Source: Methyloversatilis sp. RAC08 (GTDB lineage Bacteria; Pseudomonadota; Gammaproteobacteria; Burkholderiales; Rhodocyclaceae). From it: 64,000 bases of DNA. The notes below the pieces were generated by a model. That model was given only the letters and a program-made list of their open reading frames with translations. It did not search any database and was not told the DNA's origin. Within the stretch, counting starts at the first letter, position 1; the number at the start of each line of letters is the position of its first letter. The DNA is taken from NCBI RefSeq assembly GCF_001713355.1, contig NZ_CP016448.1:3720001-3784000 (forward strand). The letters are read 5' to 3'. A program made the translations under genes and the position numbers. Below, one piece after another: positions 33,976-44,094 of the stretch.

Positions 33976-34032
33976 AGAATGAATGGCTCGCCGCGTACGC
34001 TGCATTCACTTTCTGCAGCCCGCGACCCGTCC

Positions 34033-35043
34033 ATGAATTCGACGACTGCCATCACACCACCCGGCCTGCCGACCGGACTTGCCGCGTCGGTAGCGGTTGC
34101 CGGTGCATCGGCTTCGCTTTCCGCCCTGCCCGGTGTATCGGCACACGGCTTCGGCTGGCTGCCGCTGGCGGTGGCGCTGGGCATCGTGGTCGGCAATCTG
34201 TGGCCGTCTCTGCCAGCGCGTGGCGTCGAGGGATTCCGCCTGGCGCGCGGTCCGTTGATGCGCGCCGGCATCGCCTTGTACGGACTGCGCATCGGAATCG
34301 ACGAACTGGGCCGGGTGGGCTGGAGCGGCCTGCTGATGGCGATGGTCGTCGTGCTCAGTACGTTCGGACTGGCGCTCTTGCTGGGGCGTCGTCTCGGCCT
34401 CGATCCCCAGGCGGCGATACTTATCGGCTGCGGTAGCGCGATCTGCGGCGCCGCGGCGGTGGCGGCGGCCGATAGCGTGATCGGTGCGCGCGCGCGCCAC
34501 GTGTCAGCCGCGGTGCTGGCAGTCGTCGTTTTCGGCACGCTGGGTATGTATCTGCTGCCGCTTCTGCAGCCGCTGACGGGCTTGAGCGATCTGTCATTCG
34601 GTCTGTGGGTGGGGCTTACGGTGCACGAACTCGGCCATGTCGTGGCCGCTGCTGCTGCGGCCGGGCCGGCGGCGGCTTCCAGTGCGCTGGTCGAGAAAAT
34701 GATGCGCGTGATGCTGCTGGCGCCGGTCGTGATGCTGATCGCAGCCCGATGGCGCGCTGGCGGCACGACGGGTTCGCGCAGCCGGGGTGTTCCGCTTTTC
34801 CTCTACGGCTTCATCGCAACGATTGCGCTCAATGCGTCCGGTCTGCTGCCGGTGTGGCTGCACGCCCTCGGTGCCGAAGCGGCGCAAGCGCTGCTGGCAG
34901 TCGGTCTGGGGGCGCTCGGTGCCAACACCCGGCTGGCCGACATTGGACAGGCCGGGTGGCGCGTGTGGGCGCTCGCCGCGCTGCTCTGGATATGGCTTTT
35001 GCTTGCCGGCTTCGGCCTGGTCAGCCTCGGAGCGCCGTCATGA
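34033..35043 (+). CDS. YeiH-family putative sulfate/sulfite exporter
   Basis: A membrane protein of 336 residues (or 354 if ATG 33979 is used) of the YeiH/UPF0324 family. It has about ten hydrophobic segments and the family's GCGSAICGAAAV motif, followed by GLWVGLTVHELGHVVAA. Homologues are called putative sulfate exporters and sit next to sulfite-responsive LysR genes. This suggests the cell exports sulfite or sulfate made by organosulfur breakdown. The promoter position favours ATG 34033. Confidence 0.85.
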   Translation: MNSTTAITPPGLPTGLAASVAVAGASASLSALPGVSAHGFGWLPLAVALGIVVGNLWPSLPARGVEGFRLARGPLMRAGIALYGLRIGIDELGRVGWSGLLMAMVVVLSTFGLALLLGRRLGLDPQAAILIGCGSAICGAAAVAAADSVIGARARHVSAAVLAVVVFGTLGMYLLPLLQPLTGLSDLSFGLWVGLTVHELGHVVAAAAAAGPAAASSALVEKMMRVMLLAPVVMLIAARWRAGGTTGSRSRGVPLFLYGFIATIALNASGLLPVWLHALGAEAAQALLAVGLGALGANTRLADIGQAGWRVWALAALLWIWLLLAGFGLVSLGAPS

Positions 35044-35193
35044 ATGCACGAAAGCGGAGCGTCGATCGTGCGGGCGCACCGCAGCGGTATGACCCGGTGT
35101 CGCAGTGGCGCTCCGGGCAGATGACGCGAAGGCACGTCCGGCAAGGCATTGCGATGGATCGGCGGCACGTCGGCTCGCAGGTCCGGCTTTTGC

Positions 35194-35217
35194 TTGACAT
35201 TACCTGTTATGACAGGT
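35194..35217 (+). promoter_or_regulatory. -35 element and GntR-type operator before the TauE/SafE gene
   Basis: TTGACA at 35194-35199 is followed within 2 bases by the palindrome ACCTGTTATGACAGGT (35202-35217). The same palindrome, with one change, occurs at 36194-36209 by the start of the gntR operon. Binding here would sit between -35 and -10 and block initiation. No convincing -10 was found. Confidence 0.6.
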
Positions 35218-35271
35218 TTGGCGGCGTACCTTTCCGGGAAGCGCGCCGCTTGTCCCGTCCGGGAGAACCGA

Positions 35272-36138
35272 TTGGATGCTTCGCTGCTGAACACGCTGTG
35301 GCCGGACCGCGGCATCGCGAGTTGGGCGGTGATCGCCGGCGCGGTGATCGCAGGGGGCGTGCTGCGCGGCATGACCGGTTTCGGCGCGGCGCTGCTGATG
35401 GCACCCCTGTTGTCCACGGTGGCGTCGGCGCGCGACACGATCTGCATCGTGACGCTGCTCAACGCGCTGCCACTGACCCATGCACTGGCGCCGTCGGTGC
35501 GCCGGCTGGTCGATCACCGCGTTCTGCTGCCGATGCTCGGCGCTGCGTGTTTCGGCATTCCGCTCGGTCTGTGGCTGGTGAGCGTGCTGCCGGCGCGATT
35601 GTTCGGGCAGGTGATCGGCCTTGCGGTGATTGCCAGCGCAGCGGTCTTGCTGACCGGCGTACGCCTGGTGCGCGGTCGCAGCCATGCCGCTTCCATCGGT
35701 GCGGGGCTGTTCAGCGGGGTGCTCACCGGTTTCGGTGGTGTCGGCGGTCCGCCGGCCATCCTCTACCTGCTGGGCGTGGAAACCGACAGTCATCGCGCGC
35801 GTGCCAGCTTCCTCGTCTACTTCGGATGCCTTTACCCGCTGGCGCTGATTGCCATCGTGCTGTCCGGCTTGTTCGGCCTGTCGCTGCTGCTGCAGGGGCT
35901 GCTGCTGGCGCCCCTTTTTCATGGCGGCGGCCTGTTGGGCGAACGCCTGTATCGCGGTCTGGATCCGCGACATTTCCGGCGGGTCGTGCTGTGCCTGCTG
36001 ATGGCCACCGGTGCGTTCGCGGCCTGGCCGAAGCACGCGACCGCTTTGGTGCAAGCGCCTGGCGCGGTGCAGCAAACCGGTGCAGGCATCGCTGCGGAGG
36101 ATGTACTGTCAAGACATAAAAATAGTTTAAAAACATAG
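35272..36138 (+). CDS. TauE/SafE-family sulfite exporter-like permease
   Basis: A 288-residue membrane protein with about eight hydrophobic segments. The TauE/SafE pattern is seen in GGVLRGMTGFGAALLMAP near the start and GVLTGFGGVGGPPAILYLLG in the second half. Relatives export sulfite, sulfoacetate or similar anions. I chose TTG 35272, which has GGGAG at proper spacing; the open frame extends to an ATG at 35149 upstream of the operator. Its C-terminus is hydrophilic and AT-rich. Confidence 0.85.
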   Translation: MDASLLNTLWPDRGIASWAVIAGAVIAGGVLRGMTGFGAALLMAPLLSTVASARDTICIVTLLNALPLTHALAPSVRRLVDHRVLLPMLGAACFGIPLGLWLVSVLPARLFGQVIGLAVIASAAVLLTGVRLVRGRSHAASIGAGLFSGVLTGFGGVGGPPAILYLLGVETDSHRARASFLVYFGCLYPLALIAIVLSGLFGLSLLLQGLLLAPLFHGGGLLGERLYRGLDPRHFRRVVLCLLMATGAFAAWPKHATALVQAPGAVQQTGAGIAAEDVLSRHKNSLKT

Positions 36139-36169: not shown

Positions 36170-36187
36170 TTGGCACTGACCTTGCAT
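36170..36187 (+). promoter_or_regulatory. Sigma-54 promoter of the gntR/AprA-like operon
   Basis: TTGGCACTGACCTTGCAT matches the -24/-12 consensus exactly. GG is at 36172-36173 and GC at 36184-36185, 10 bases apart, with the flanking TGGCAC and TTGCA complete. It implies RpoN-dependent, enhancer-activated expression. The GntR-type palindrome at 36194-36209 covers the expected start site. Confidence 0.82.
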
Positions 36188-36193
36188 AACATA

Positions 36194-36209
36194 ACCCGTC
36201 ATAACAGGT
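36194..36209 (+). promoter_or_regulatory. GntR-type operator at the gntR operon start site
   Basis: ACCCGTCATAACAGGT is an imperfect palindrome. Its complement, ACCTGTTATGACGGGT, differs at a single base from the site at 35202-35217. It lies about 10 bases after the sigma-54 -12 element, over the expected transcription start, so bound regulator should repress. Confidence 0.65.
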
Positions 36210-36229: not shown

Positions 36230-37009
36230 ATGGCACCGCACCGCAAGCAGATCGCGCCCCCGGGCGCAGCGAAGGTCGAGGATGCGCTGTCGCAGGTATC
36301 GCAGATGCCGCTGTACACGCAGATCCGCGAAATCCTGCGCCGGCGCATTCTCGACGGCAGCTATCCGCCGCATTCGCAGATGCCATCGGAAAGCCAGATG
36401 ATTTCGGCTTTCGCTGTCAGCCGCATCACGATACGGCAGGCATTGGGCGACCTGCAGAAGGAAGGGCTCATCTTCAAGGTGATGGGCAAGGGCAGCTTCG
36501 TCGCCAAGCCGAAGGCCTTCCAGAGTCTGTCGCGGCTGCAGGGGTTCGGCGAGGCCATGTCGACCTCCGGCTACGAAACCTATTCGCTGCTGCTCAGTGC
36601 CCGACCGGTCGCAGCGAGTGCGCTCGTGGCACAGCGGCTGCAGCTCAAGCCGGAGGCGCCGGTGTTCGAAATCCAGCGCCTGCGCTACCTGAATCGCGAG
36701 CCGATTTCGGTCGACGTGAGCTACTTCCCGCCGGACATCGGCGAGCGGCTCGCCCAGGAAGATCTGGCCACGCGCGACATCTTCGTCATTCTCGAAAACG
36801 ACCTCGGACGCAACCTCACGCACGCCGACGTGCAGATCGAGGCGATTTCGTCCGACGAGTCGCTTGCCCGCCATCTCGACATCGCCGAGGCCTCGCCGCT
36901 GCTGCGCATAGAGCGACTGACCTGGGCCGACGACCGGCCCATCGATTTCGAGTTTCTCTACTACCGCGGCGATGCCTTCCAGTACCGCCTGCGCATCGAT
37001 CGAAGTTGA
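36230..37009 (+). CDS. GntR-family regulator, HutC subfamily
   Basis: A 259-residue regulator with an N-terminal winged helix (residues about 25-95: PLYTQIREILRRRILDGSYPP, SRITIRQALGDLQKEGLI) and a UTRA ligand-binding domain (about 110-255). ATG 36230 has CAGGAG upstream. It is the first gene of the operon it probably controls, and near-identical palindromes occur at its own start and before the TauE/SafE gene. The effector is unknown. Confidence 0.9.
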   Translation: MAPHRKQIAPPGAAKVEDALSQVSQMPLYTQIREILRRRILDGSYPPHSQMPSESQMISAFAVSRITIRQALGDLQKEGLIFKVMGKGSFVAKPKAFQSLSRLQGFGEAMSTSGYETYSLLLSARPVAASALVAQRLQLKPEAPVFEIQRLRYLNREPISVDVSYFPPDIGERLAQEDLATRDIFVILENDLGRNLTHADVQIEAISSDESLARHLDIAEASPLLRIERLTWADDRPIDFEFLYYRGDAFQYRLRIDRS

Positions 37010-37094
37010 TCCAGCGCTGGAAAGCAAAGCAGGAAGTCTTCGTTCGCAGCTGCGCGCCGAAGCGCGACAGTGCAGCCCACATCAAGGAGAGAAC

Positions 37095-38825
37095 ATGAAA
37101 CGCATTGACCTGGAATTCGATCTCGTCGTCATCGGCGGCGGGACCGGCGGCCCGATGGCCGCAGTGAAGGCGAAGGAGAAGAACCCGAAGCTGCGCGTGC
37201 TGCTGATCGACAAGGCCAACGTGAAGCGCAGCGGTGCGATCTCGATGGGCATGGACGGGCTGAACAACGCGGTCATTCCCGGTCATGCGACGCCCGAGCA
37301 GTACGTCAAGGAAATCACCATCGCCAACGATGGCATCGTCGATCAGGAAGCGGTGATGGCCTATGCGGCCAACAGCTTCGACATGATCAACCAGCTCGAC
37401 CAGTGGGGCGTCAAGTTCGAGAAGGACGAGACCGGCGACTACGCGGTGCGCAAGGTGCATCACCTGGGCAGCTACGTGCTGCCGATGCCCGAAGGGCATC
37501 ACATGAAGAAGATCCTATACCGCCAGCTCAAGAAGGCGCGCGTCGAAGTGACCAACCGGGTTGTCGTGACGCGCGTGCTGACCGGCGCCGACGGCGAGGT
37601 GGTCGGCGTCATGGGCTTCGACTGCCGCACCGCCGACACCTATGTCATACGGACCAAGGCTGCGGTGTTGTGCACCGGTGCTGCCGGGCGCATTGGTCTG
37701 CCGGCATCGGGCTATCTGATGGGCACCTACGAAAACCCGACCAACTGCGGCGATGGCCATGCGATGGCCTACCACGCCGGGGCGGACCTGGCCAATCTCG
37801 AGTGCTTCCAGATCAATCCGCTGATCAAGGACTACAACGGACCGGCCTGTGCGTACGTGACCGGCCCCTTCGGCGGCTTCACCGCCAACTCCAAGGGCGA
37901 GCGCTTCATCGAGTGCGACTACTGGAGCGGCCAGATGATGATGGAGTTCTACAACGAACTCGAAGGCGGCAACGGTCCGGTCTTCCTCAAGCTCGACCAC
38001 CTGGCCGAAGAAACCATCCAGGAGATCGAAACCATCCTGCATACCAACGAGCGACCCAGCCGCGGCCGCTTCCACGAGAAGCGCGGCAACGATTACCGCA
38101 AGCAGATGGTGGAGATGCACATTTCCGAGATCGGCTTCTGCAGCGGTCACAGCGCTTCCGGCATCCACACCAACGCGATGGGCGAGACGTCCGTGCCGGG
38201 TCTGTACGCCGCCGGCGACTGCGCCAGCGTGCCGCACAACTACATGCTGGGCGCCTTCGTGTACGGCCGGCTGTGCGGCGAGAACGCCGCCGCCTACTGC
38301 GCCGGCCATGGACACGGTGTGATCGACACCGGTGATGTTGCCGCCGAAGAGCGCCGCATTCTCGCGCCACTGGGCCGCACCGACGGGCTGACGCCTTATC
38401 AGATCGAGTACAAGACGCGCCGCCTGGTGAATGACTACCTGCAGCCGCCGAAGATCACGCGCAAGTACGAGATCGCACTGCGTCGTTTCGACGAAATCCG
38501 CGAGGACGCCGATTCGATGTTCGCGGCCAACCCGCACGAGCTGATGCGCGCGATGGAAGCGCATTCCATTCTCGACTGCGCGGAAATGGCGGCGCGGGCC
38601 TCGATGTTCCGCACCGAGAGCCGCTGGGGCCTCTACCACTATTTCCTCGATCACCCGGAGCGCGACGACGAGAACTGGTTCTGCCATTCGCTGCTGAGCA
38701 AGAGCGCGGACGGCCGCATGCAGATGCGCAAGAAGGCCATCGAACCCTACATCGTGCCGATCGACGAGGAAGAGCGCAGCGCCTACCAGCGTCTGCGCGT
38801 CGCGCACAGCGCCGAAGCCGCCTGA
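37095..38825 (+). CDS. AprA-like flavoprotein (fumarate reductase / adenylylsulfate reductase alpha family)
   Basis: A 576-residue FAD enzyme. The Rossmann motif is IGGGTGGPMAA (residues 13-23). KRSGAISMG (44-52) is of the AprA type and unlike the SHT..AQGG block of fumarate reductase. HSASGIH (352-358) and YAAGDCASVPHNYMLGAFVYG (371-391) complete the FAD and active-site regions. The next gene encodes a two-cluster ferredoxin, as in aprBA but in opposite order. The protein is shorter than true AprA (about 620-660), so an adenylylsulfate role is not assured. It probably oxidises or reduces a small sulfur or carbon substrate. Confidence 0.8.
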   Translation: MKRIDLEFDLVVIGGGTGGPMAAVKAKEKNPKLRVLLIDKANVKRSGAISMGMDGLNNAVIPGHATPEQYVKEITIANDGIVDQEAVMAYAANSFDMINQLDQWGVKFEKDETGDYAVRKVHHLGSYVLPMPEGHHMKKILYRQLKKARVEVTNRVVVTRVLTGADGEVVGVMGFDCRTADTYVIRTKAAVLCTGAAGRIGLPASGYLMGTYENPTNCGDGHAMAYHAGADLANLECFQINPLIKDYNGPACAYVTGPFGGFTANSKGERFIECDYWSGQMMMEFYNELEGGNGPVFLKLDHLAEETIQEIETILHTNERPSRGRFHEKRGNDYRKQMVEMHISEIGFCSGHSASGIHTNAMGETSVPGLYAAGDCASVPHNYMLGAFVYGRLCGENAAAYCAGHGHGVIDTGDVAAEERRILAPLGRTDGLTPYQIEYKTRRLVNDYLQPPKITRKYEIALRRFDEIREDADSMFAANPHELMRAMEAHSILDCAEMAARASMFRTESRWGLYHYFLDHPERDDENWFCHSLLSKSADGRMQMRKKAIEPYIVPIDEEERSAYQRLRVAHSAEAA

Positions 38826-38863
38826 CCCCCGATCACTTCGCCCGAATCCCGAGGAATTACGCC

Positions 38864-39097
38864 ATGACCATTGCCACAACGCAGACCCAGGTACCCGTGA
38901 ATGTCGATAACGACAAATGCATCGCCGAAAAGGGCTGCACCGTCTGCGTCGATGTCTGTCCGCTCGACGTGCTCGCCATCGACATGCTGACGAAGAAGGC
39001 TTTCATGAAGTTCGACGAATGCTGGTACTGCCTGCCGTGCGAGACCGATTGCCCTACCGGCGCAGTCAGCGTGTCGATTCCCTACCTGCTGCGCTGA
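38864..39097 (+). CDS. Small AprB-like two-[4Fe-4S] ferredoxin
   Basis: A 77-residue electron carrier with eight Cys in two groups: Cys19, 25, 28, 32 (GCTVCVDVCP) and Cys53, 56, 59, 63 (CWYCLPCETDCP). The spacing and the second motif match the AprB ferredoxin core. It lacks AprB's long C-terminal tail, which in true AprB wraps around AprA. It lies 38 bases after the flavoprotein and is its likely electron partner. Confidence 0.85.
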   Translation: MTIATTQTQVPVNVDNDKCIAEKGCTVCVDVCPLDVLAIDMLTKKAFMKFDECWYCLPCETDCPTGAVSVSIPYLLR

Positions 39098-39108
39098 GGA
39101 GCCGGACG

Positions 39109-40056
39109 ATGGATATCCAGAATTGTTCAGTCGCCGAGCGTCTCGGCAGCGCGGACGCGGAAGTCAGGCGCCTTGCCGTGATCGACTTGCCTTACGGCGA
39201 TGAGGACGACATCGTGCCGCTGCTGCTGCCGCGCCTGGCGGACCCGGATGCGTCGGTGCGGACCGAAGCGGTGCGCGCACTCGAAGGCTACGAAGAACCC
39301 GAAGTGGTGTCGGCGCTGGCACCGATGCTGCTCGATGCCGATGCGGATGTCCGGGCAGCGGCGGGCGCCGTGCTGTCCGAACTGAAGGAGAGCGCATCGG
39401 CCGCGCCACTGCTGCCGTTTCTGCAGGGCCACTCGAGCGAGGTACGCATGCTGGCCCTTCGTGCGATCCGGGCACTGCGCGTGCCTGAAGCCTTCGCACC
39501 GGCGATGGAAGCCTTGAAGGATGGCGACGCCGGCGTCAGGCGCGAGGCAGTCGGCGTGCTTGGCTACCTGCGCATGCCGGAGGCCATCGGTGCGCTGGCC
39601 GAGGTGGCGGCGCGCGACGCGGACGCCGATGTCCGGCGCATCGCCATCGGCGCCATCGGCTATTCCAGCGAGGTGAGCGTGCTGCCGGCCCTGACCCGCG
39701 GTCTGGCCGACACCTCGTGGATGGTGCGCGACGAGGCGGCACAGACCCTGGGCAAGCTGCGACTCGGTCTGGCGATTCCGGATCTGATCCGCGCCATGCA
39801 GGACGACTACTGGCAGGTACGCGTGAAGGCTGCACGCGCACTCGGCCTGCTCAAGGCGGTCGCGGCGCTGCCCGCATTGATCGACAGCCTGACGCACACG
39901 ATAGGAAACGTGCGCAAGGAAGCTGCCATCGCGCTGGGCGAAATCGCCGACCCGCGTGCCATTCCCGCGCTCGAGGCCGCGCTGGGTGATGCCGACCCGG
40001 ATGTGCGCAAGTTGTCGCGCCTTGCGCTCACCGCCATCACCCTGGCTCAGAAGTGA
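39109..40056 (+). CDS. HEAT-repeat protein (PBS-lyase type)
   Basis: A 315-residue soluble protein built of about nine HEAT-like repeats of roughly 31 residues (for example [64 protein letters not shown]). No catalytic residues are seen. Such repeats act as scaffolds or, in phycobiliprotein lyases, in cofactor attachment. Between two ferredoxin genes it may assemble the flavoprotein-ferredoxin complex or help insert its cofactor. It starts 11 bases after the first ferredoxin. Confidence 0.88.
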
Positions 40057-40066
40057 GGAAACAGCC

Positions 40067-40402
40067 ATGACCTATGTCGTGACCGAAGCATGCGTGCGCT
40101 GCAAGTACACGGACTGCGTGGATATCTGCCCGGTCGAGTGCTTTCACGAGGGCCCCGAGTTTCTGGTCATCAACCCGGACATCTGCATCGATTGCGGCGT
40201 GTGCGTCAGCGAATGCCCGGTCAGCGCGATCTATGCGCAGGACGAACTGCCACCGGGCCAGGAGGTGTTCATCGAACTCAATGCGCGGCTCGCCGCGCAG
40301 TGGCCGGTGATTGCCGAGGCGCACGAACCGCTTGCCGATGCCCAGGCCTGGGCGGAAGTGAGCGAGAAAAGGCAGTACCTCGACGCCCTTCAGGGCGCAT
40401 GA
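40067..40402 (+). CDS. Seven-iron ferredoxin (FdxA/FdI type)
   Basis: A 111-residue ferredoxin opening [19 protein letters not shown], the FdI family start. Cys9, 12, 17, 21 and 25 and Cys40, 43, 46 and 50 supply one [3Fe-4S] and one [4Fe-4S] centre. The length matches FdxA. Sitting 10 bases after the HEAT gene, it should pass electrons to or from the flavoprotein. The first gene of this type in most genomes is chromosomal fdxA; here it is part of an operon. Confidence 0.9.
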
Positions 40403-40502
40403 AGAAGCGGTGGATGGGCTGGGCAGGAGACAGGCTTCCGAAACAACAACCGCAACAGCATTTCGTCGTTTTTCATTGAACTGACAGGGAGAGGTGAACG
40501 CC

Positions 40503-41948
40503 ATGAATGCACTGAATGCAGGTCTTGACCGATTGGCCGCCGCATCGCGCATGTTCGCGCTGGGCATGTCCATCGCGGTCTGTGCGCCGGCTGCACTGGC
40601 CGAGGTGATCACGGTGGGAATCGGTACGCAGAACACGACGACCAATACCGTGACCGGCGGCATCGTCATCAAGGAACTGGGCCTGATGGAGAAGCACCTG
40701 CCGAAGACCGGCAAGTACAAGGACATTCAGTTCAAGATCGAATGGCAGAACTTCACCTCGGGTCCGCCGGTGACCAACGGCATGGTGGCCAACACCCTGC
40801 AGATCGGCATGATGGGCGACTATCCGCTGCTGGTGAACGGCGCCACCTTCCAGGCAGGGCCGGAGACTAAGAGCAGGCTGATCGCCCTGATCGCCTACAA
40901 CATAGACGGTGCCGGAAACGGCATGGTGGTGCACAAGGATTCACCCTATTTCCAGCTGTCCGACCTCAAGGGCAAGAAAGTGTCCGTGCCGTTCGGGTCT
41001 GCTGCGCACGGCATGCTGCTCAAGGCGATGGAAGACCGCGGGTGGACGTCCGACTACTGGGAACTGGCCAGCCAGAGCCCCGAGGTCGGCACGTCGAACC
41101 TGCAGGAAAAGCGCATCGACGGCCACGCCGATTTCGTGCCGTTTGCCGAACTGCTGCCGTACCGGGGCTTTGCGCGAAAGATATTCGATGGCGTCGAGAC
41201 CAAGGTGCCGACCTTCCACGGCGTGGTGGTGCGCGAGGACTTCGCGAAAAAGTATCCGGAATTCGTCGTCGCCTACATCAAGGCGATGATCGAAGCCAAC
41301 GACTGGGTGCGCAAGAACCCGGTCGAGGCGGCCACGAAGATCGAGCAATGGACACGCGTCGAGAAGGAGGTCGCCTACATGTTCCTCGGCCCGAGCGGTG
41401 TTCATACGCTGGATCCCACCATCAAGCCGAAGTGGGTCGAAACGGTGAAATACGACCACGGCGTGCTGAGCCGCATGGGCCGCGTGAAGGAGTTCGACGC
41501 TGACGCGTGGGTCGACGAAAGCTACGTGATGCAGGCTTACAAGGAACTCGGGCTGGACTACGCGGCGCAGAAGGCCGGCTATTCGAGCTACGAGATTTCG
41601 GGCACCGACCCCTTGTGCGGCGGCAGCATCACCGCACCGCGCGAAGCGGGCGAGGTGTGGATCGAGGGCGGGGCGCTGACCGCCTACAGATCGGCCAACT
41701 GCACGCTGGCGGCAGTCCGCAAGGCGACCGAGGCCGGTAAGAAGGTCGGTGTGGCCTTCGTGTTCGATCAGACCTTCAAGATCAAGCTGTTCGCCGACAA
41801 GGCTTACTACTCGCTGGTCAGCAAGGATGGTGTGACGCAGATCGTGCCCTTCCTGCTGAAGAAGGATGCCGAAGCGCACGCCGCGGCCAATGGTGGCAAG
41901 GCGGGGCTCTATGCCGACGCACTGGCCGTCGCAACGGTAAGGAAGTGA
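40503..41948 (+). CDS. SsuA/TauA-like binding protein with a NosL-like C-terminal domain
   Basis: A 481-residue periplasmic binding protein. The signal peptide ends near residue 33 (PAALA). Residues 34-360 form the NMT1/THI5-like solute-binding fold used for sulfonates, nitrate and similar anions. Residues 368-481 are an added domain (PLCGGSITAPREAGEVWIEGG, AYYSLVSKDG, LLKKDAEAHAAANGG) that resembles the copper chaperone NosL, with Cys372 and Cys400. The fusion is unusual and is conserved in length terms with no frameshift. It begins 100 bases after the ferredoxin gene, with GGGAGAGG as ribosome site. Confidence 0.82.
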   Translation: MNALNAGLDRLAAASRMFALGMSIAVCAPAALAEVITVGIGTQNTTTNTVTGGIVIKELGLMEKHLPKTGKYKDIQFKIEWQNFTSGPPVTNGMVANTLQIGMMGDYPLLVNGATFQAGPETKSRLIALIAYNIDGAGNGMVVHKDSPYFQLSDLKGKKVSVPFGSAAHGMLLKAMEDRGWTSDYWELASQSPEVGTSNLQEKRIDGHADFVPFAELLPYRGFARKIFDGVETKVPTFHGVVVREDFAKKYPEFVVAYIKAMIEANDWVRKNPVEAATKIEQWTRVEKEVAYMFLGPSGVHTLDPTIKPKWVETVKYDHGVLSRMGRVKEFDADAWVDESYVMQAYKELGLDYAAQKAGYSSYEISGTDPLCGGSITAPREAGEVWIEGGALTAYRSANCTLAAVRKATEAGKKVGVAFVFDQTFKIKLFADKAYYSLVSKDGVTQIVPFLLKKDAEAHAAANGGKAGLYADALAVATVRK

Positions 41949-41951
41949 GTC

Positions 41952-42917
41952 ATGGGAACCGCTATCAGGATTCAGCCCGCGGATGACGTGCGGTCGTTCG
42001 CATCGGAGCAGGACGAAGGTGCGACAGCGCAGCGTGAGGTGCCGGTCGTGCCCGCCGTCAGGCGCGCGGAACGGTCCGAAGCAGCGGCTCCCGTGGGCAA
42101 GCTCAGGTCATCGGCACTCTGGCGCCTGATGCGCAGCGAAGGGCCGGCGATGCTGCTGGCCCTCGTTTCGATCGGCCTGCTGATCGGCTTCTGGTACCTG
42201 GCAACCGCCTATCGCTGGGATTTCTACATCCGCTTCACGCACATCCCGGGGCCGGTCGAGGTGTACCAGGATGCGCTGGCCCTGTTCGGCGATCCGAAGT
42301 TCATGACCAACATCATGATCAGCCTGCGACGCATCATGATCGGCTTCGTTGTCGCCACGCTGCTGGGCGTGGCCTTCGGGCTGCTCATCGGCCGCTACCG
42401 CGCGGTGCGCGGGCTGCTGTTTCCCGCCATGGAAATCCTGCGACCGATCCCGGCCATCGCCTGGGTGCCGATGTCCATCATGCTGTGGCCGACCACCGAA
42501 ACCAGCATCGTGTTCATCACCTTCCTCGGTGCCTTCTTTCCCATCCTGCTCAACACCATGCACGGTGTGGCGACGATGGACAGCGTGCTGGTGCGCGCGG
42601 CGCGCTGTCTGGGGGCCAACGAGTTCGCGCTCATGACCCAGGTGGTGCTGCGCGGCGCGATGCCTCACATCTTCACCGGACTGTCGGTGGGCATGGGTGT
42701 GGCGTGGGTATCGCTGATCGCCGCGGAAATGATTTCGGGGCAGTACGGCGTCGGCTACTTCACCTGGGAAGCGTATTCGCTGATCGAGTATTCGCACATC
42801 GTGATCGGCATGCTGGTCATCGGTGTACTGGGTCTGCTGTGCAGCGGTGCCATCCGCCTGCTGGCCCGGCTCGCCATGCCCTGGCAGGTATCCGTCGGAA
42901 AGGAGAACACGCGATGA
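41952..42917 (+). CDS. ABC transporter permease (SsuC/TauC type)
   Basis: A 321-residue inner-membrane permease with six predicted segments. The N-terminus has a poorly conserved cytoplasmic region of about 65 residues. The EAA loop is in VRAARCLGANEFALMTQVVLRGAMPHIFTGL. It pairs with the binding protein upstream (3-base gap) and the ATPase downstream (4-base overlap). The family imports sulfonates, nitrate, cyanate or taurine. Confidence 0.92.
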   Translation: MGTAIRIQPADDVRSFASEQDEGATAQREVPVVPAVRRAERSEAAAPVGKLRSSALWRLMRSEGPAMLLALVSIGLLIGFWYLATAYRWDFYIRFTHIPGPVEVYQDALALFGDPKFMTNIMISLRRIMIGFVVATLLGVAFGLLIGRYRAVRGLLFPAMEILRPIPAIAWVPMSIMLWPTTETSIVFITFLGAFFPILLNTMHGVATMDSVLVRAARCLGANEFALMTQVVLRGAMPHIFTGLSVGMGVAWVSLIAAEMISGQYGVGYFTWEAYSLIEYSHIVIGMLVIGVLGLLCSGAIRLLARLAMPWQVSVGKENTR

Positions 42918-43783
42918 ACGCCGCTTCCGTCCCCGGCAAGGGGCATATCGAAATCCGCGATGTCTGCGTGCGCTTCACGCAGAACGGCGTGCCGCTCGAT
43001 GCGGTCAGCGACGTGTCGCTCGACGTCAAGCCGGGGGAATTCGTATCCATCGTCGGACCGTCCGGATGCGGCAAGTCGACCTTGCTCAACATCGTTGCCG
43101 GTTTCCTGAAGCCGGATCAAGGCATCGTTTCGGTCGATGGCTCGCCGGTCGGCGGACCAGGGGCGGACCGGGGCGTCGTGTTTCAGCAGTATTCGCTGTT
43201 TCCGTGGCTCAGCGTGCGGCAGAACGTCGAATTCGGTCTGAAGATGAAAGGCGTCAGCCGTAGCGCCCGCGAGACGAAGGCGCGCACCTTGCTCGGTCTG
43301 GCCGGTCTGCTGTCCTTCGAAAACCACTTTCCGGAGCAGTTGTCCGGCGGCATGAAGCAGCGCGTCGGCATCGTGCGCGCGCTGGCCACCAGCCCGCAGG
43401 TCATGCTGATGGACGAGCCTTTCGGCGCGCTCGATTCGCAGACGCGCGTGGTGATGCAGGAAATCCTGACCAATATGTGGCAGCAGCTCCAGTTGTCGGT
43501 GCTGTTCATCACCCACGACATCGAAGAGGCCATCTTCCTGTCGGACAAGGTGTATGTGATGACGGCCCGGCCCGGACGCGTTAAGTCGGAGATTCCGGTG
43601 TTGCTGCCGCGTCCGCGCACACCCGAAATGACCTCGTCGCCGACATTCCTGTCGCTGCATCGACAGCTCAAGGCCCTGATACGCGAAGAAAGTCTCGCGG
43701 CCATGGGCGGCGAACTGAAGGAGGGCGGGCTGGCCGGGCACGACTGGCATGTCGGCACCGAAGGTGTCGGAGCGATGCTGTGA
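42914..43783 (+). CDS. ABC transporter ATP-binding protein (SsuB/TauB type)
   Basis: A 289-residue ATPase. Walker A is GPSGCGKST (residues 48-56), the signature LSGGM is at 143-147, Walker B is VMLMDEP (163-169) and the H-loop is in FITHDIEEAI. It energises the permease above. The start ATG overlaps the permease stop. A C-terminal tail of about 50 residues (GGELKEGGLAGHDWHVG) is longer than in SsuB. The stop overlaps the DUF971 start. Confidence 0.93.
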   Translation: MNAASVPGKGHIEIRDVCVRFTQNGVPLDAVSDVSLDVKPGEFVSIVGPSGCGKSTLLNIVAGFLKPDQGIVSVDGSPVGGPGADRGVVFQQYSLFPWLSVRQNVEFGLKMKGVSRSARETKARTLLGLAGLLSFENHFPEQLSGGMKQRVGIVRALATSPQVMLMDEPFGALDSQTRVVMQEILTNMWQQLQLSVLFITHDIEEAIFLSDKVYVMTARPGRVKSEIPVLLPRPRTPEMTSSPTFLSLHRQLKALIREESLAAMGGELKEGGLAGHDWHVGTEGVGAML

Positions 43784-44094
43784 GTGCGCTGCCACGCGCC
43801 GTCACGGTACATGGTGCGTCGCGCCTGTTGCGTATCGAGTGGGACGACGATACTGAAAGCTCACTGCCCCATGCACTGCTGCGCGCGCGCTGCCGCTGCG
43901 CCTTCTGCACGAAGGCGGCGCGCGCCGGTGCGCCGCCGCAGGATTGCAGCGAGGTCGCGCTGACCGAGGCGCACGTAATGGCTGGCACCGGCCTGAATCT
44001 GGTTTTCTCCGACGGGCACCGGCGCGGCATCTATCCGTGGGCCTATCTGCGAGAACTGGGAGCGCCGCGCGAAGCCGGGGAGGTCGTATCGTGA
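43780..44094 (+). CDS. DUF971 protein (butyrobetaine-hydroxylase N-terminal-like)
   Basis: A 104-residue stand-alone DUF971 protein, starting at GTG 43780 in the ATPase stop. It has a CRCAFC motif that could hold a metal or Fe-S ion, and the VFSDGHRRGIYPWAYLRELG block. The domain occurs beside Fe-S cluster-assembly (Mrp/ApbC) proteins and as the N-terminus of butyrobetaine hydroxylase. In this operon a maturation role for the ferredoxins or flavoprotein is an inference. Confidence 0.85.
   Translation: MSALPRAVTVHGASRLLRIEWDDDTESSLPHALLRARCRCAFCTKAARAGAPPQDCSEVALTEAHVMAGTGLNLVFSDGHRRGIYPWAYLRELGAPREAGEVVS

Follow-up and report, generated by a model that had tools for sequence, protein, structure and literature searches.

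A conserved flavoprotein–ferredoxin–HEAT operon with a sulfonate-type importer in Methyloversatilis: a candidate ferredoxin-driven sulfur-scavenging module

Introduction

The operon described here lies in a 64,000-nucleotide stretch of the genome of Methyloversatilis sp. RAC08 (assembly GCF_001713355.1, contig NZ_CP016448.1, positions 3,720,001 to 3,784,000; hereafter the window, numbered from its first letter) and comprises eight genes, led by a GntR-type regulator, for a flavin adenine dinucleotide (FAD) flavoprotein of the PRK08275 family, two ferredoxins, a HEAT-repeat protein, an ATP-binding cassette (ABC) importer and a DUF971 protein. Among described systems that resemble it, the asf genes are said to go back to an original study of 1999. 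In the available sections of PMC4267179, PMC2864759 and PMC10441942, asfRABC is a reductase-ferredoxin set required, besides ssu, for the use of aromatic sulfonates, its regulator is described as LysR-type, and the use of sulfonate sulfur by soil bacteria is described as oxygen-dependent, through the monooxygenase SsuD; asfA has served as a marker (PMC9694294, available sections). A second relative, the 3'-phosphoadenosine 5'-phosphosulfate (PAPS) reductase of Methanothermococcus thermolithotrophicus (MtPAPSR), represents an assimilatory use of an AprBA-type enzyme, the adenosine 5'-phosphosulfate (APS) reductase type, according to the available sections of PMC10322725. A full-text literature search, with most subscription journals outside its coverage, returned no paper with a title on the present system and no functional study of PRK08275.

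Both the operon itself and its conservation are well established. As to its function, we tentatively propose, at somewhat below an even chance, a regulated sulfur-scavenging module in which a ferredoxin-driven reductase would free sulfite from an imported sulfonate-like anion.

Results

Gene content and conservation of the operon

Every gene of the operon proposed in the initial annotation was found in place in the source genome (one contig of 3.94 Mb, 99.96% complete):

36230..37009, + strand: GntR/UTRA transcriptional regulator, gntR (Pfam/NCBIfam)
37095..38825, + strand: FAD flavoprotein, PRK08275 / NF006131 (1067 bits against a curated cut-off of 587; tree; residues)
38864..39097, + strand: short AprB-like ferredoxin with two [4Fe-4S] motifs and CWxC (Pfam/NCBIfam, motif)
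39109..40056, + strand: HEAT-repeat protein (Pfam; HEAT half of PRK13800, 95.7 bits)
40067..40402, + strand: FdxA ferredoxin (NF045490, 153.9 bits, over the cut-off of 135)
40503..41948, + strand: SsuA/NMT1-like substrate-binding protein (Pfam/NCBIfam), with a NosL-like C-terminal domain at ~41586-41945
41952..42917, + strand: ABC permease, TauC/SsuC/NtrB type (Pfam/NCBIfam)
42914..43783, + strand: ABC ATPase, SaoA/TauB type (Pfam/NCBIfam)
43780..44094, + strand: DUF971 / GBBH-like_N protein (PF06155, 71 bits)

The gap between gntR and the flavoprotein gene is 85 nucleotides (nt), followed by gaps of 38, 11, 10, 100 and 3 nt and by two 4-nt overlaps. The regulator, initially called HutC-type, does belong to the GntR/UTRA class, and falls short of HutC itself (138 bits against an equivalog cut-off of 220).

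Conservation was assessed at 115 loci (10 from plasmids, 80 from named genomes, 24 from sampled genomes, and the window), the named-genome loci being the best 80 of at least 589 confirmed relatives. Neighbors within 12 kb were counted at the 97 loci, window included, with flanks longer than 7 kb on each side; most of these (L022-L101) are the nearest named relatives, which biases the sample. A ferredoxin stands beside the flavoprotein at 97 of the 97 and a HEAT protein at 96, the exception being L018, in which HEAT is fused to the flavoprotein, so that the arrangement cannot be put down to chance. In genomes drawn evenly from the class and the phylum, both partners are found at 24 of 24 loci. 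The other usual neighbors are an ATPase (85 of 97, unrelated ATPases counted), GntR (81), the permease (77), the binding protein (77) and DUF971 (75), while FdxA (25), YeiH (15) and TauE (3) are rarer. The components of the operon very likely act as one module.

The gene set is retained across loci while its order shuffles: several alphaproteobacterial loci begin with DUF971, Pseudomonas and many Burkholderia-type loci have HEAT after the importer, and Tsukamurella carries the flavoprotein and the HEAT part as a fusion. The set recurs across phyla, far outside close relatives, although the gene order itself varies. A flavoprotein over the cut-off is present in 5 of 274 sampled genomes of the class, 21 of 398 sampled from the phylum (the source genome being in each count) and 14 of 60 of the genus of genome G587, inferred to be Cupriavidus. 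A search of 72,556 plasmid records gives 53 matches to it at E up to 1e-60, from Proteobacteria, Cyanobacteria and Actinomycetota. The nearest flavoproteins, among the matches listed, come from an Azoarcus metagenome-assembled genome and from Variovorax.

Several plasmid loci depart from the usual arrangement. On rhizobial plasmids (L015, L186, L187, L188 and others) the operon sits on conjugative or symbiosis-type replicons, often with a Crp/Fnr regulator replacing GntR. On a Nostoc edaphicum plasmid (L017, 8980-15135), five unrelated-looking genes of the same direction (hydrolases, a methyltransferase, GNAT and VOC proteins) split the flavoprotein gene from those of the ferredoxin and the HEAT protein.

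A flavoprotein family separate from AprA

The flavoprotein is a full member of PRK08275/NF006131 with an FAD_binding_2 domain, and its closest PDB relatives are the alpha subunits of PAPS and APS reductase, the top match, 8a8o, being MtPAPSR. It is below the cut-offs of aprA (161.5 bits against 641.75) and nadB (110.6 against 452.75). In a maximum-likelihood tree of 37 rows, 23 PRK08275 rows form one group (support 89/85, below the starred level), outside a group of AprA with MtPAPSR (100/99) and one of succinate dehydrogenase (SDH) with NadB (100/99), and PRK08275 plus AprA/PAPSR are split from SDH, NadB and AsfA at 98/95; MtPAPSR and AsfA sit on long branches. Four of the original 41 rows had been removed (OWN_146k, OWN_161k, CH34_TcuA and CH34_C4_895k); the earlier 41-row tree, which held unrelated long-branch rows, gave a weak split around PRK08275 (59/89).

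The flavoprotein has an SE motif (Glu345) and a KD motif (Lys245-Asp246) in common with AprA and MtPAPSR alike, and His381 with AprA only. AprA Arg265, which we take to lie at the substrate site and which MtPAPSR retains, aligns with Leu243 here, and is Leu in the PRK08275 rows shown. The motifs HPT, RDVV, PTxHY and GANRLG, presumably the active-site motifs of SDH and fumarate reductase (FRD), are absent from the PRK08275 rows of the alignment shown, and the NCBIfam name fumarate reductase/succinate dehydrogenase (NF006131, NF010374) is unsupported by active-site motifs. Judged by scores, tree and residues, PRK08275 is a separate enzyme family that no characterized family contains. The AprA-type assignment first proposed does not extend to AprA proper, given the separate group and the change from Arg265 to Leu243; nor did the tree place the protein within any family of known pathway. 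True AprA is present as well in two carrier genomes (G239 and G247), and the source genome has none at E<=1e-150. The structure model of the flavoprotein (mean predicted local distance difference test, pLDDT, 68.2; residues 237-353 below 50) is too weak for argument.

As in AprBA, the partner is a ferredoxin with two [4Fe-4S] motifs and CWxC, the latter in 115 of 115 loci; unlike AprB, it has 77 residues, lacks the AprB tail and scores 35.3 bits against the aprB cut-off of 135.65. The HEAT protein, which matches one half of the flavoprotein-HEAT fusion model PRK13800, may take the place of that tail.

Comparison with AsfAB

The window flavoprotein was first taken, from the literature description and the taxon list, to be AsfA. 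This identification was rejected: the genome of Cupriavidus metallidurans CH34 holds no PRK08275 member over the cut-off, and its AsfA scores 51-56 bits against NF006131 and takes a long branch in the tree, outside PRK08275 and AprA. The position of the CH34 locus comes from locus tags calibrated on six TauD genes, not from annotation. This calibration puts Rmet_4334 at ~923 kb, and at ~929 kb the gene of a 549-residue flavoprotein and a ferredoxin gene overlap, while the opposite strand carries an SsuA-like protein, an ATPase and a permease (an earlier candidate, near 793 kb, was identified as TcuA/TcuB). Like the window, AsfA/AsfB (asfRABC; P. putida S-313, CH34 Rmet_4334/5) have an FAD_binding_2 flavoprotein followed by a two-cluster ferredoxin, with an SsuA-like importer nearby; unlike it, they have a LysR-type instead of a GntR regulator. 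By this comparison AsfAB is the closest system in the literature, a distant pair and not the system of the window. That two separate flavoprotein-ferredoxin pairs occur with sulfonate-type importers makes a sulfonate role likelier.

Linkage to electron-input genes

In Methylobacterium radiotolerans the operon runs on into FdxA and a ferredoxin-NADP reductase (FNR). Relatives of this reductase are found in 20 of the 115 loci, including the window's close relatives L022, L023 and L024 and not L025, and 8 further loci have instead an Nfn-like NAD(P)H:ferredoxin protein. The latter, in Acidithiobacillus caldus pTcM1 (L012, 10574-14035), is a single chain of 1153 residues, two parts of which match both subunits of NADH-dependent ferredoxin:NADP oxidoreductase; its relatives in the 7 other loci are 45-48% identical. 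An FNR or Nfn-like gene is present in 22 of 31 loci with FdxA as against 6 of 84 without it, some loci ending too soon to tell. This co-occurrence points to a reductase, and the presence of two unrelated NAD(P)H-ferredoxin modules by the same operon argues that electrons flow in, making the reductive direction probable.

Importer and exporters

The importer has the subunit types and best families of SsuABC/TauABC; it differs in a binding protein below the cut-offs of SsuA (113 bits against 163.5) and TauA (73 against 304), with an extra tail. The extension noted initially is indeed present, as a C-terminal domain of ~110 residues, and a model of the protein (mean pLDDT 90.2) gives a separate alpha/beta domain at ~380-476. 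Its likeness to NosL, which rests on Pfam (PF05573, cut-off 24), appears in a sub-threshold score of the window tail (17.3), in the Pseudanabaena tail (25.4, the only one of six over the cut-off) and in matches at E<=0.01 in 16 of 32 binding-protein relatives (best 2.7e-6). A Cys pair occurs in the tail at 26 of 29 loci with FdxA and 9 of 59 without it, a pattern that is probably lineage-driven and to which we attach no function.

The two exporters named in the initial annotation, both matched by Pfam, lie upstream of the operon, and an ADP-ribosylglycohydrolase lies downstream on the opposite strand; purL and mfd stand farther out, one per side:

33979..35043, + strand: YeiH-type exporter (PF03601; Pfam, 240.7 bits)
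35149..36138, + strand: open reading frame of a TauE/SafE-type sulfite exporter (Pfam, 85.9 bits); true start unsure, possibly 3' of the operator at 35203

TauE/SafE is named for sulfite export, and the exporter substrates are otherwise as we presume them. YeiH is linked to the flavoprotein in 18 of the 115 loci, window counted, and lies within 10 kb of it in 7 of 25 sampled genomes (source genome counted; five belong to one genus), where random placement would give ~0.1, as estimated from gene counts and genome sizes. An annotated TauE/SafE adjoins the operon in Aquabacterium, Rhizobium, Pseudanabaena and Leptolyngbya plasmids.

Putative promoter and operator

In seven loci, the region ahead of gntR aligns at a sigma54-type promoter and at a palindrome. 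In the window, pattern matches give:

36170..36186, + strand: sigma54-like promoter TTGGCAC-N5-TTGCA
36194..36209, no strand assigned: putative GntR operator ACCCGTCATAACAGGT
35203..35216, no strand assigned: second operator copy CCTGTCATAACAGG, with perfect palindromic halves, before tauE

Of the 115 promoter regions, 21 contain the promoter pattern (0.009 expected per region) and 41 the operator pattern (0.0026 expected per region), counts that are descriptive, since the patterns were written after the seven aligned promoters had been viewed. FdxA is present in 18 of the 21 loci with the promoter pattern. Within the window, the operator pattern matches twice against 0.17 expected (two or more matches in 2 of 100 shuffles), whereas two matches of a shorter promoter pattern alone, against 0.57 expected, are not significant. 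The palindrome was seen by alignment; repeat-finding upstream of gntR at the settings used gave no inverted repeat. With a looser operator pattern, 5 of the 115 loci have at least two copies, and in L073 and L099 a second copy lies beside the Nfn-like gene. As operator copies thus stand at an exporter gene in the window and at an electron-input gene elsewhere, these genes look like one regulon.

The palindrome is presumably the GntR operator, and its position so near the start suggests that the GntR protein would act by repression. Sigma54 requires an activator, and activators of the SfnR kind respond to sulfur limitation. A Pseudanabaena plasmid (L016, 6646-8661) encodes a LysR regulator whose C-terminal domain resembles NMT1 (PF13379, E 4e-4, below the curated cut-off) and may be a ligand sensor of importer type inside a regulator; a similar protein occurs in L021.

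Discussion

In the mechanism that we tentatively favor, the operon would be under GntR control, with a sigma54-type promoter in the window's branch, and the SsuABC-type importer would take up a sulfonate-like anion, which a cytosolic complex of the PRK08275 flavoprotein, the AprB-like ferredoxin and the HEAT protein would cleave reductively. Electrons would pass from NAD(P)H through a ferredoxin reductase and FdxA to the two [4Fe-4S] clusters, the FAD and the substrate, releasing sulfite to be assimilated, with any surplus leaving through TauE/SafE or YeiH; the loading of Fe-S clusters may be aided by DUF971 or, in cyanobacteria, by Mrp. The substrate class and the sulfite product are each a best guess at near even odds.

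This sulfite-releasing scheme draws on the nearness of the flavoprotein to the APS/PAPS reductase alpha subunits, the AprB-type CWxC of its ferredoxin, the constancy of the ferredoxin and HEAT partners, the linkage of FNR and Nfn-like genes with FdxA, the SsuA/TauA-class importer, the YeiH linkage and the operators before tauE and by Nfn-like genes. It draws further on the AsfAB precedent, as far as the available sections describe it, and on the source genome, which has no SsuD and no luciferase-type monooxygenase (E<=0.001) in a search that did not extend to TauD and Rieske oxygenases, a limit on this last point. New beyond the initial annotation are the linked electron-input genes, the promoter with its operator, the lack of SsuD and the precedent of AsfAB. 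The uptake-plus-redox module for an organosulfur-like anion with sulfite-type exporters that was proposed there has contextual support only, in its recurrence and its exporters, its substrate and product staying at the strength just given.

Several observations weigh against the scheme. The window has neither an FNR nor an Nfn-like gene beside the operon, a 69% identical FNR of the source genome being at 2.23 Mb, 1.5 Mb away, and in 78 of the 115 loci both FdxA and a reductase of this kind are missing from the surroundings. As the Arg common to the substrate sites of AprA and MtPAPSR is Leu here, the substrate must differ from theirs. TauE/SafE is matched in only 6 of the 115 loci, and L022 and L025, which share the YeiH-TauE-GntR order of the window, have no second operator by the pattern used. 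SsuD is over its cut-off in 17 of 25 carrier genomes, and the cleavage of aryl sulfonates by P. putida S-313 is reportedly oxygenolytic.

That the flavoprotein, the ferredoxin and the HEAT protein would themselves form an oxygen-independent, ferredoxin-driven enzyme cleaving C-S bonds, a reductive sulfonate desulfonase independent of SsuD in aerobic soil bacteria and cyanobacteria, with an APS-reductase-type active site working on imported organosulfonates, is a bolder proposal that we regard as doubtful.

It is unlikely that the module instead reduces a non-sulfur anion, or one of the ring or C=C type, from the range of the NMT1 importer class, its linkage to sulfite-type exporters being incidental. 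C=C reductases are numerous among FAD_binding_2 flavoenzymes, importers of the NMT1 class accept non-sulfur ligands as well, and GntR/UTRA regulators serve many pathways; yet the motifs of SDH, FRD and NadB are absent, the nearest solved relatives act on sulfo-anhydrides, and YeiH is linked in several lineages, with an operator before tauE.

We consider it improbable that the flavoprotein and ferredoxin merely relay electrons to a sulfonate-cleaving oxygenase, as proposed for AsfAB with SsuD, a view published for AsfAB in the available sections of PMC4267179 and PMC2864759. The frequency of SsuD among carriers would suit such a relay, as would FMN-dependent (flavin mononucleotide) monooxygenase genes by some loci and a Rieske protein by one. 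However, the flavoprotein is of a catalytic type, kin to APS/PAPS reductase, and not an NAD(P)H-binding reductase; 8 of the 25 carriers lack SsuD over the cut-off (one of them, G461, with a sub-cut-off hit of 279 bits), and PF00296 proteins are missing from 4 carriers, among them the source genome (one of these 4 being 88% complete). Local FdxA, FNR or Nfn-like genes, moreover, accompany the operon in 8 of 8 genomes without SsuD as against 7 of 17 with it (p 0.008, not corrected for kinship), and the SsuD-partner model is weakened.

AprBA works oxidatively in sulfur oxidizers, and the carriers include Thiobacillus, Sulfuriferula and Acidithiobacillus. An oxidative direction here, with a reduced sulfur compound or sulfite adduct oxidized and electrons leaving through ferredoxin to NADP, is nevertheless very improbable, as most listed carriers are not known sulfur oxidizers and MtPAPSR has no measurable reverse reaction (PMC10322725, available sections).

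Whether carrier bacteria obtain sulfur from sulfonates without oxygen becomes a directly testable question. If the sulfite-releasing scheme is true, it would give the APS-reductase superfamily a new substrate class, would set right the misleading fumarate reductase name borne by a large family and would add a reductive route, paid for in NAD(P)H, in three phyla and often on plasmids, changing how the mobilization of sulfur in soil is read from genomes.

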